Source: an uncultured Brachyspira sp.
GTDB lineage: Bacteria > Spirochaetota > Brachyspiria > Brachyspirales > Brachyspiraceae
Assembly (NCBI RefSeq): GCF_944390845.1
Contig: NZ_CALXRM010000018.1
Span: 1-50,338, forward strand
Length of the DNA stretch: 50,338 nt
Direction: 5' to 3'
The translations under genes were made by a program, and so were the position numbers. Under the pieces are notes generated by a model. That model saw nothing but the letters and a program-made list of their open reading frames with translations. It did not search any database and was not told where the DNA came from. The first letter of the stretch is position 1, and each line of letters opens with the position of its first letter. Shown here one piece after another: positions 7,528 through 50,338 of the stretch.

Positions 7528-7852
7528 TATACTGAAAATTTTTAAGTTTGTCAACTGATGCACTTTATATAGAATTATCAACTTTTTTGCCGCACAAAAA
7601 AGTAGCTATATCCTCAACAAGCTCGGATACGCTTCGCGAAAACGCAATTGCTAGAACTTTATATTTGAAAAATATTCATTAAATATGGAATATAACCTAA
7701 ATTTAGACTAAAAATGCAGTCTTTTTGGTTCTTTGTGCCAATACCACAGGCACTCCCTACGGTCGCAAAAGAACTGGGGTGCGGGGCAAAGCCCTGCAGA
7801 TATTTAAAATTCAAAAAAATTATTTCTGACAAAATGTAGTTGTTTAGGTATA
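7528..7852 (+). repeat. TATAC-ended modular repeat, copy A
   Basis: Left end TATACTGAAAATTTTTAAG (7528) and right end TTGTTTAGGTATA (finishing about 7852). The left stem ACTTTTTT/AAAAAAGT encloses GCCGCAC (7579-7604). The TATCCTC..GGATA/GCTTCGCGAA module follows at about 7610-7640. The central stem is GTTCTTT (7728-7734) with AAAGAAC (7768-7774), enclosing the module GGCACTCCCTACGGTCGC. The copy fills the 560-bp gap between pgm and the GH57 terminator. The remaining part (7366-7527) is AT-rich and holds the pgm promoter region. Confidence 0.85.
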
Positions 7853-7868
7853 AATACTTGATATAAAA

Positions 7869-7902
7869 AAGAGTATGCATATTTTGTAATATACATACTC
7901 TT
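7869..7902 (-). terminator. Terminator of the GH57 gene
   Basis: Stem AAGAGTATG / CATACTCTT with an AT loop, followed on the minus strand by TTTTTTATAT. It lies 24 bp beyond the stop of the gene at 7926. Confidence 0.75.
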
Positions 7903-7925
7903 GAATAAATTTCTTAATTAATTAT

Positions 7926-9512
7926 TTAACTATATATTCTAAAGTCCATTTCTGGGAATATATCATCACGCCATTCTAATTTACTTAACCATTCTTCGTT
8001 TAAGTCCCTATTTTTAATAGCATAATATAGGTCAGTAAATCTTTTTACATATAGTTTAGTTGTATTAACAGCATAATCAACCATAGTACCAGTATGCATA
8101 ATGAAAGCCCAGTCACTGCTTTGAGCAAGTAATAATTCACGTGCTGCCTGATTCAAAGCTCTCTCATAAAGACCAGTTTCATTGTAATAGTCATGTGCTA
8201 ATTCTATCATACGTTCAGCAGCTTTATGTAAGTGTCTGTATATCCAGCCATTAGTACCATTAAGCCATACTTCTCCGTAACCATTAGCACCCCAGCTTGA
8301 CATTGAAGGCATTGATATCTGATTTACTGGGTGTCTTTCCAAATATTCTTTTGGAGTAATAGTTTCTATTGTATTTTGATCATAATGAATTTTTCTCATT
8401 AAGAATTCTATAAACATAGGACCTTCATACCACCAGTGTCCGAATAATTCAGCATCATAAGGAGATACCACTATTGGAGGTCTGTCCATAACAGAAGATA
8501 AATACTCAATCTGTTTTTCTCTGTTGAACATGAAGTTTCCAGCATGATCTCCAGCAGCTTCCATAGCCCATTCAGGATTATAAGGCTCTTTTGCACAATC
8601 TTTACCAGTAATTCTATAATATTTTATACCAGTGTTTTTTCTAAGTCCATTGCTTTGTATAAAGTCTTTAATATATTCAAATGGCAAATCATAACCTATA
8701 TCTCTATAGAATTCTCTGTATCTGAAGTCTCCTGGATATCCAACTTCAGCACTCCATACACTTCTTGAACTTTCTATATCTCTACCAAATGCAGCAACTC
8801 TGCTTTCTCTTGAACAATATAAAGGAGCGTAAACACCGTATTTAGGTACTCTGTCAGCATACATAATACCATGAGTATCAACAAAGAAATATTTAATTCC
8901 ATTGTTTGCAAGATGTTTTTCAAGTCCAGGGAAGAATCCGCATTCTCCAAGCCATATACCAGTAGGTTTTCTTCCTAAATGTTTTTCATGAGTTTTTACA
9001 GCCATTTTTAGCTGAGCTTCTATTGCTTTAGGATATTCCTGCATGAATGGGAAAAATCCATGTGTAGCACCGCAGGTTATTATTTCTAAATTTCCTCTTT
9101 CCAAAAAATATCTGAATCCATTTAATATGTTTTTATTGTATTTATAAACAAAAATATCTCTAATCTTTCTGAACTTATCTCTATAAAATTCGGCAGTATG
9201 ATGAAAATTAGGATCTAATGATGTTCTTTCACACTCTAATTCTGATAATTTTATCAATTTCTCTATATAATTAACATATCTATTTTGAAGTAATTCATTA
9301 GCTAACATATTCATTAATGGAGGAGTTACACTCATAGTAATTTTAAAATTTACTCCGTCATTAACCATTCGATCATATGCATCTAATAAAGGGATATATG
9401 TTTCCGTAATGGCTTCATATAACCATTCTTCTTCCAAAAAGTTTTCATGTTCAGGGTGTCTCACATAAGGTAAGTGAGCATGTAGCACTAAAGCTAAATA
9501 GCCTTTTGACAT
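7926..9512 (-). CDS. GH57 1,4-alpha-glucan branching enzyme
   Basis: A 528-residue glycoside hydrolase family 57 protein with a DUF1957-like C-terminal part, the architecture of GH57 glycogen branching enzymes such as TK1436. Conserved regions are HAHLPY (11-16), GIWLGECG (185-192, the nucleophile Glu190), FFVDTHG (about 209-215) and PYDAELFGHWWYEG (351-364, acid/base Asp353). The positions of Glu190 and Asp353 agree well with those known for the family. It should introduce alpha-1,6 branches into glycogen-like glucan in the cytoplasm; no signal peptide is present. AAGGAA precedes the ATG. It is single, with its own terminator. A GH57 amylopullulanase or 4-alpha-glucanotransferase is less likely given length and motifs. 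Confidence 0.88.
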   Translation of the reverse strand: MSKGYLALVLHAHLPYVRHPEHENFLEEEWLYEAITETYIPLLDAYDRMVNDGVNFKITMSVTPPLMNMLANELLQNRYVNYIEKLIKLSELECERTSLDPNFHHTAEFYRDKFRKIRDIFVYKYNKNILNGFRYFLERGNLEIITCGATHGFFPFMQEYPKAIEAQLKMAVKTHEKHLGRKPTGIWLGECGFFPGLEKHLANNGIKYFFVDTHGIMYADRVPKYGVYAPLYCSRESRVAAFGRDIESSRSVWSAEVGYPGDFRYREFYRDIGYDLPFEYIKDFIQSNGLRKNTGIKYYRITGKDCAKEPYNPEWAMEAAGDHAGNFMFNREKQIEYLSSVMDRPPIVVSPYDAELFGHWWYEGPMFIEFLMRKIHYDQNTIETITPKEYLERHPVNQISMPSMSSWGANGYGEVWLNGTNGWIYRHLHKAAERMIELAHDYYNETGLYERALNQAARELLLAQSSDWAFIMHTGTMVDYAVNTTKLYVKRFTDLYYAIKNRDLNEEWLSKLEWRDDIFPEMDFRIYS

Positions 9513-49481: not shown

Positions 49482-49571
49482 TTAATATATACTGAATCAA
49501 TAATTCCCTAAATGTATTATAAAAAGGCAATTCTTAATGCTTTTGAAAAAATATAAATATCATATTTAGTA

Positions 49572-49942
49572 TATACTAAAAATTTTTAACTTTGTCGATT
49601 TTTTGTTGTTCTTTTTCCCGCCACATACGCTCTGTGGACTTCGTCAAAGAACCAAAAAGTGCAAATATAAAATTAGTATTAAATCATACTAATTATGTTT
49701 GACATGTAAGATAAATTACTAAATTTAAGTCGAAATGCCGCCTTTCGCAAAGCGTATCCGAGCCTCTCGAGGATATAGCTTCTTTGTGGCAATACCACAG
49801 GCACTCCCTACGGTCGCAAAAGAAGTGGGGTGTTGCGTAAGCACGCAGATCTGCACTCTGTGTGCTTCGCAGTGGGCAAAGCCCCATATCTTAAAAAGAA
49901 AATATAATTTTAATTTTGATAAAATATAGTTGTTTAGGTATA
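49572..49942 (+). repeat. TATAC-ended modular repeat, copy G
   Basis: Left end TATACTAAAAATTTTTAACT at 49572; its right end TTGTTTAGGTATA runs into copy H. The left stem is GTTCTTT (49608-49614)/AAAGAAC (49646-49652) enclosing CCCGCCACATACGCTCTGTG. The central stem is CTTCTTT (49779-49785)/AAAGAAG (49819-49825) enclosing GGCACTCCCTACGGTCGC. The module TTTCGCAAAGCGTATCCGAG precedes it. The 90 bp from 49482 hold a stray TATACTGAA at 49489 and nothing else. Confidence 0.85.
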
Positions 49943-50256
49943 TACTAAGAATTTTTAAGTTTGTCAACTGATGCACTTTATATAGAATTATCAACTTTTT
50001 TGCCGCGACTTCGTCAAAGTATCAAAAAACGCAACTGCTAGAACTTTATATTAAAAATATATGTATTAAATATAGTGTATAACCTAGATTTGTACTAAAA
50101 ATGCAGTTTTTCGCGAAGCGTATCCGAGCCTGTCGAGGATATAGGTTCTCGCCGAAGGCTGGCTGTGCAGCACGCTGTGTACTTCGTAATGGCAAAGCTC
50201 TGAAAATATTTTAAATTAAAAAAATTATTTTGACAAAATATAATTGTTTAGGTATA
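49941..50256 (+). repeat. TATAC-ended modular repeat, copy H
   Basis: It starts with the TATAC that ends copy G and stops at the TATAC of copy I. The left part matches copy A (TTGTCAACTGATGCACTTTA, AGAATTATCAACTTTTTTGC), so H and A are one subfamily. It includes TTTCGCGAAGCGTATCCGAG and GCAGCACGCTGTGTACTTCG modules. Confidence 0.85.
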
Positions 50257-50338
50257 TACTGAAAAATTTTTAACTTTGTCATTTTTTTAGTCAACTTTTT
50301 CCCGCCGCACACGCTCTGCGGACTTCGTCAAAGTTGCA
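50255..50338 (+). repeat. TATAC-ended modular repeat, copy I (cut by the window end)
   Basis: Left end TATACTGAAAAATTTTTAAC. The left stem CAACTTT (50292-50298)/AAAGTTG (50330-50336) encloses CCCGCCGCACACGCTCTGCG and GACTTCGTC. It continues beyond the window. Confidence 0.8.

Follow-up and report, generated by a model that had tools for sequence, protein, structure and literature searches.

What are the hairpin-rich repeats that lie between the genes of an uncultured Brachyspira sp., and what moves them? The question is raised by a stretch of 50,338 nucleotides at the start of contig NZ_CALXRM010000018.1 (assembly GCF_944390845.1), here called the window, in which an original prediction, made from the letters alone, had seen nine copies of a modular, non-autonomous mobile element. 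We found that the repeats belong to a large family of miniature inverted-repeat transposable elements (MITEs), and it is very probable that the family is mobilised in trans by a transposase of the IS630 family, whose insertion sequence (IS) has the same left and right ends.

Ends, flanks and empty sites of the family

The window's genome (G000) is an assembly of 3.43 Mb in 133 contigs and was compared with the relatives G001 to G025, which makes 26 Brachyspira genomes in all. A scan of the window for both 27-bp ends found eight complete elements of 269–378 bp. Together with one that is cut by the window edge they are the nine predicted copies (A to I, Table 1), each at its predicted position, and the same scan of reversed sequence, covering the window and 20 relative loci, gave no end pair. 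With up to three mismatches the right end occurs at 289 sites in G000 and the left end at 245, compared to none for either pattern reversed. Pairing of the ends gave 55 elements in 1.43 Mb (460 kb from each of three relatives, and the window), again with none in the reversed sequence. In total we collected 204 distinct elements, 174 of them left-right, 26 right-right, which bear the same end twice, and four left-left. The consensus ends derived from the 174 left-right elements are TATACTGAAAATTTTTAAGTTTGTCAA and TTGACAAAATATAGTTGTTTAGGTATA; written inward they agree at 18 of 27 positions, and the imperfect inverted termini of about 27 bp that had been predicted are thus real. The median length is 310 bp overall and 331 bp in the 72 elements from the window's own genome. 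Two of the left-right calls are only 47 bp long and probably reflect chance or nested ends; among the right-right elements the shortest, at 63 bp, are a pair at one site common to G009 and G025.

A whole copy was matched in 24 of the 26 Brachyspira genomes, the exceptions being G001 and G019, and G009 alone has 132 right ends. The right-end pattern (at most three mismatches) was found in 25 of 392 spirochaete genomes. Of these, 23 are among the 26 Brachyspira and the other two carry one and two sites, while a control pattern in the same scan had one match, in another genome. Among the matches listed for the exact pattern in public genome contigs (at least 57 stretches) there were Brachyspira records only, from B. 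hampsonii, B. innocens, B. pilosicoli and B. alvinipulli among other records. The family is, in other words, essentially confined to Brachyspira. A viral, plasmid or phage source was considered and rejected: the 16-mer TTGTTTAGGTATATAC occurs in 52 viral contigs, none of which has an element end at up to five mismatches. A whole copy gave no match in plasmid and phage collections, and the 5' sequence of the IS described below gave no viral match. A sub-family that shares the ends, but whose different interior forms a long hairpin around GTGCGG / CCGCAC, was seen at G025 164104–164345 and 242431–242717 and at G009 88378–88663.

The flanks were counted with patterns that omit the outer TA, in the window with 90 loci of its own genome and, as a second set, in three relatives. 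TA stands before the left end in 90 of 93 cases in the first set and 45 of 48 in the second, and after the right end in 97 of 100 and 64 of 68, where the background is 13%. There is also a likeness between the flanks and the left end, the flank consensus being AGTATA before and TATACTAAAAA after the elements, and 34 of 149 ends directly abut another end, which shows that copies often lie beside copies.

Copies are not always at orthologous places. The 41 insertion blocks in 460-kb stretches of G007, G025 and G009 gave 82 comparisons with the other genomes, of which 17 were empty, 15 shared, 2 rearranged and 48 not mappable; 14 blocks were empty in at least one other genome, 14 were shared in at least one, and six were both. 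For the window, the site of element C is empty in all three relatives, the block of E and F is shared in two and not mappable in the third, and the flanks of A, B and D lie on opposite strands in all three. A similar opposite-strand call for the block of G and H in G007 was not used, as a flank containing element I may explain it. The clearest empty site is the counterpart in G007 of a tandem pair at G025 206896–207440, where the two genomes are 91% identical over 240 bases and a single TA-run is found at the joint. An alignment spanning the joint was obtained for 20 of 67 insertion blocks, and about seven of these candidates were usable when inspected by eye (G025 206896, 242432 and 403736; G009 77080, 86262 and 126982; and C in the window). 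In the remaining candidates a single end had been mistaken for an element, another copy had been matched, a deletion was imprecise or the alignment was poor, and a row for element D was rejected because the place is not orthologous. Alignment of 11 sites with MAFFT mostly left too many gaps for a boundary to be set. With so few usable empty sites, the duplication of TA rests mainly on the flank statistics.

An IS630-family insertion sequence with the same ends

A decayed transposase gene between matching ends was also found. A search with PF13358 (DDE_3, IS630 family) had a match in one of the 26 genomes, G015, and none in G000. The G015 gene is decayed and is flanked by the left end of the family (one mismatch) and its right end (three mismatches), 1056 bp in total. 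Its N-terminal 79 amino acids (aa) are open and followed by stops in all frames read. This part has about 36% identity to plasmid proteins annotated as IS630 transposases, and matches helix-turn-helix models below the cut-offs only. For the C-terminal part, a piece translated by read-through gave a DDE_3 match at 2.6e-9. G015 holds two decayed IS630-type elements (L308 758–1813 and L347), 90% identical over 687 bases and about 11 kb apart on one contig.

When the interior of the decayed IS was used in a DNA search, at least 16 places in G000 matched its last 50–60 bases, one (C79) matched its first bases and one (C35) gave a weaker internal 5' match. G024 has at least nine matches to each end of the IS, G023 one to each and G020 one, to the 3' end; the counts for G000 and G024 are lower bounds, as at most 18 candidates were scored. 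A pattern for the 5' end of the IS was found at 11 sites in G000, five in G024, one in G023 and none in the other 23 genomes. All 11 sites in G000 have flanks of their own and reach a contig end 64–115 bp inside the left end, which implies many near-identical IS copies that were impassable for the assembly. The IS is thus multi-copy in G000, with its copies collapsed. Ten of the 11 left ends agree with the MITE consensus at all 27 positions, and the eleventh has one extra T. Downstream of the left end is a sigma-70-like promoter (TTGTCA, 17 bases, TATAAT) and then a start codon, and the open frame after the promoter in the longest G000 5' end is MDFNLTDEEIKFLKAFHKKV. The 3' side continues into the right end, and of four right ends from this genome two are the same as the MITE consensus and two have two mismatches.

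The family therefore has the features of an IS630-type MITE: terminal inverted repeats, TA duplication, the same ends as an IS630-family element, many dispersed copies with empty sites in relatives and no transposase gene of its own. The non-autonomous, MITE-like nature that had been predicted holds, with shared as well as lineage-specific copies and the partner IS in the same genome. Cleavage by the IS transposase would take place at the ends, and the element would be integrated at a TA that is thereby duplicated. In relatives with complete or near-complete genomes where the IS was not found, the MITEs remain and look like orphans. G004, G010 and G011 (one contig each), G007 and G009 (two) and G006 (four) have MITEs and no IS match beyond short weak ones.

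Mini-hairpin modules

Segments of, for instance, 18–20, 24 and 30 bp recur as present in one copy and absent from a similar one; the listing of these has 1661 distinct segments from 12370 sequence pairs, which is not a count of independent events. The GC-rich modules are mostly tandem mini-hairpins, NNC(GAA)GNN with a stem of 3 bp, directly followed by a second hairpin of 3–5 bp. The 204 elements contain 385 CGAAG sites, at which the successive flank positions pair in 89%, 78% and then 8% of cases, compared to 34%, 28% and 21% for shuffled partners, and when distinct 21-base contexts are counted once, 158, 136 and 23 of 191 pair. There are eleven stem types in the first hairpin, led by CGC, GAC, TAC, GGC and TGC. 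The stem of the first hairpin is thus covarying across copies, with the pairing kept while the sequence changes. Perfect double hairpins number 173, in 108 of the 204 elements, and four after letter shuffling. Among the controls, CGCAG exceeded its shuffled partners in pairing as well, with 44% and 66% at positions two and three as compared to 26% and 45%, probably because CGCAG is part of second hairpins. A form of the first hairpin with a GTAA loop was unsupported, with pairing of 50% and 45% at 44 sites compared to 28% and 48% for shuffled.

The modules belong to the elements. CGAAG occurs 7.8 times per kb within elements and 0.40 times per kb elsewhere, and at these outside sites the flanks pair in 28%, 31% and 27% of cases, compared to 24%, 28% and 28% when shuffled. 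Under a strict rule, 1.38 Mb from three relatives contained 72 modules, of which 71 are linked to elements (46 lie in paired elements and 25 in fragments) and one lies elsewhere; a looser scan had given 41 matches outside elements. The number of CGAAG/CTTCG sites follows element length (r = 0.72), and as 47 of the 174 left-right elements have no such site, the modules are common and not universal. The motif is on both strands of the elements, at 110 and 233 sites. The commonest module hairpin is exactly CGCGAAGCG, at 93 of the 385 sites. This sequence and GCGAAGC are described as extraordinarily stable DNA mini-hairpins, and for CGCGAAGCG as DNA a melting point of 88.5 C is given, which is in part a calculator value (PMC10527192). 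In the second hairpins the loops (AGA, TGC, AGC and others) are not of this kind.

A comparison of orthologous copies gave six pairs, of which we rely on two, the 63-bp pair mentioned above and G007 154111 / G009 177167. In the latter the modules differ, the backbone is kept, and one module lies inside the loop of another. Three pairings of G009 268415 with three different elements were unconvincing, and one further pair has unlike interiors. The idea that the loops accept small palindromes was in this respect supported, since tandem mini-hairpin modules are present or absent between copies with one clear orthologous case, but palindromes moving freely were not seen (one of 72 outside). The copies had also been called hairpin-rich, and this is true at the scale of the small modules and for D, E and G, whose whole-element folds beat all 100 dinucleotide shuffles on both strands, both as RNA and as DNA. 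A and F were marginal (2–7 and 6–16 of 100 shuffles as good), and B (15–41), C (22–46) and H (42–63) folded no better than shuffled sequence, so whole-element folding is not decisive as proof of structure.

Setting, rearrangement and relation to known repeats

The copies in the window sit between long open reading frames (ORFs), as predicted, and have no plausible long ORF of their own; two short ORFs at 36491–36787 and 49725–49994 (98 and 89 aa), which overlap copies, look spurious. In the larger set, 45 of 47 blocks are outside ORFs of at least 100 aa. Between convergent genes we found 18 of 44 blocks, compared to 164 of 1101 gaps (p = 4e-5), between divergent genes three of 44 compared to 176 of 1101 (p = 0.14), and between tandem genes 23 of 44. 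This setting is consistent with a mobile element that is tolerated where it is least harmful, and an effect on transcripts is also possible.

Table 1. Elements of the family and the inverted segment in the window.
Feature	Position	Strand	Description
Element A	7528..7852	+	left-right, 325 bp; at one inversion breakpoint
Inverted segment between A and B	7853..19083		about 11.2 kb; opposite direction vs neighbours in 7/7 informative relatives
Element B	19084..19352	-	left-right, 269 bp; other inversion breakpoint, inverted to A
Element C	25363..25711	-	left-right, 349 bp; empty site in G007, G025, G009
Element D	28296..28673	+	left-right, 378 bp; at further synteny break
Degenerate right-end remnant	36059..36085	+	5 mismatches; immediately ahead of E
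Element E	36082..36363	+	left-right, 282 bp; tandem with F
Element F	36362..36714	+	left-right, 353 bp; E/F block common to G007 and G025
Element G	49572..49942	+	left-right, 371 bp; tandem with H
Element H	49941..50256	+	left-right, 316 bp
Element I	50255..50338	+	left end only, cut by window edge; left-end match also 50254-50309

The segment from 7.86 to 19.07 kb is reversed relative to its neighbours in G007, G009, G017, G021, G022 and G025. G023, the seventh informative relative, keeps the joint between 7865 and 19419, and G002 and G020 were uninformative. The breakpoints, between 7451 and 7861 and between 19072 and 19408, hold exactly A and B, and the matching junctions in these relatives have no element end at up to six mismatches. 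The inversion would be most simply explained if the lineage of the window acquired two copies in inverted orientation, which then recombined. Copies that are mostly between or downstream of genes and often abut one another may generally supply the homology for such events. A further segment, 23.6–28.2 kb, is inverted relative to the sequence from 28.8 kb onward in G007, G025 and G009, with D at one end and no element at the other.

The window also has a tmRNA gene (RF00023) at 19416–19768 on the minus strand, ending 64 bp from element B, which was the only Rfam match in the window at the gathering score. Repeated DNA of another kind was seen in neighbouring paralogous ORFs at 19959–23593 (604 and 603 aa) and 36837–40695 (627 and 639 aa), and in a tandem gene family with direct repeats, four similar consecutive ORFs of 183–195 aa on the minus strand at 42445–44968.

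Several observations speak against mobilisation by the IS. An intact transposase gene was not found: the assemblies of G000, G023 and G024 lack the central part of the IS, and the copies in G015 are decayed. The MITE interiors are unlike the IS outside the ends. Of the comparisons with relatives, 15 of 82 were shared and 48 not mappable, and the seven or so usable empty sites among 20 candidates are at 79–91% identity. There are also breaks in synteny without an element, at 5.2–5.4, 23.6 and 30.5–31.4 kb, so the elements are not the sole cause of rearrangement. Finally, MITEs are present in 24 of 26 genomes and traces of the IS only in G000, G015, G020, G023 and G024. This last difference could mean that the unit is moved by some other enzyme and that the IS has captured MITE ends. 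We consider that extremely improbable: duplication of a TA target is a known habit of IS630/Tc1-mariner elements, loss of the IS with survival of the MITEs is a simpler account of the distribution, and draft assemblies hide collapsed IS copies. It is also conceivable that the repeat is a structured RNA or a regulatory repeat under selection, a terminator or a stabiliser of the upstream mRNA, spread by recombination and not by transposition. The enrichment between convergent genes, the folding of D, E and G on both strands and the covarying hairpins would fit such a role, but the unoccupied sites, the TA flanks and the ends in common with the IS show transposition. Given also that the folds of B, C and H do not surpass those of shuffled sequence, that the mini-hairpin motif is on both strands and that Rfam matches in the window are limited to the tmRNA, this explanation is very unlikely.

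For the modules, one explanation is a further, independent mobile element, about 18–30 bp in size, that inserts into the loops of the MITE. They do differ as discrete segments between similar copies, also at the orthologous site with its kept backbone and one module inside the loop of another. A free unit should however land outside the elements too, which was the case for one module of the 72, and no target duplication was established, which makes a second element unlikely. With the MITE mobilised by the IS, the modules would rather be hairpin cassettes that turn over at the DNA level. Recombination, or replication errors at hairpins, would add modules, remove them or copy them from one element to another. 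The retained feature would then be the hairpin itself, perhaps as single-stranded DNA. A bolder suggestion, which we regard as possible if somewhat doubtful, is that the mini-hairpins in the elements, extraordinarily stable as single-stranded DNA, form an alphabet that is shuffled, being kept for an action at the DNA level and swapped between copies by hairpin-driven template switching. The hairpins would act when a strand is exposed in replication or transposition, and the stems would be free to change as long as the pairing is kept. We know of no precedent for such a class of DNA-structure cassettes, and scarcely any search was aimed at it.

An IS630-type MITE family with an identified partner IS is a known kind of element. 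The closest likeness is to RUP, the repeat unit of pneumococcus, for which mobilisation by IS630-Spn1 has been proposed; RUP too is described with a high copy number, an intergenic position, a terminal TA, end repeats resembling those of an IS630-family element in the same genome and enrichment between convergent genes (PMC2229807, PMC3049150). RUP is however uniform and 107 bp, whereas the Brachyspira family is modular with a median of 310 bp, so that it is RUP-like in its way of working and not RUP, a distinction made by description and not by alignment of the ends. BOX elements of streptococci are modular as well, 67–637 bp long with inner modules absent or multiple (PMC3049150). Compared by description only, they consist of the sequence modules boxA, boxB and boxC, whereas the Brachyspira modules keep pairing and not sequence. 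The Correia elements or NEMIS of Neisseria have inverted ends of 24 bp, TA termini and insertion duplications, but are about 107 and 155 bp with one internal variant of 50 bp, and mini-hairpin modules are not part of their description in the passages concerned (PMC2229807). Their sizes do not fit the Brachyspira family, an assignment judged by size and not by end alignment. The stable mini-hairpins are elsewhere a motif of chemistry, whereas in Brachyspira they are a covarying building block of a mobile family.

No named family had been thought to match, and this agrees with our searches: none with these ends was found in Rfam or in the literature on Brachyspira repeats, MITEs and IS630, with subscription journals and ISfinder outside its scope. 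Term searches of three Brachyspira genome papers showed no repeat family (PMC3163572, PMC2897892, PMC2650404). What is new is the genus-wide spread, the place at an inversion and above all the covarying mini-hairpin modules.

About 3% of the G000 genome would be made up of this family, if 289 right ends are multiplied by the median of 331 bp, and the partner IS would account for many of the contig ends of the draft assembly. IS elements and integrases have been reported near rearrangements in B. pilosicoli (PMC3532143), and in this genus with its rearranged chromosomes the MITEs would be a concrete cause of at least one inversion. The modules, finally, offer hundreds of natural covarying examples with which selection on single-stranded DNA hairpins in cells can be tested.

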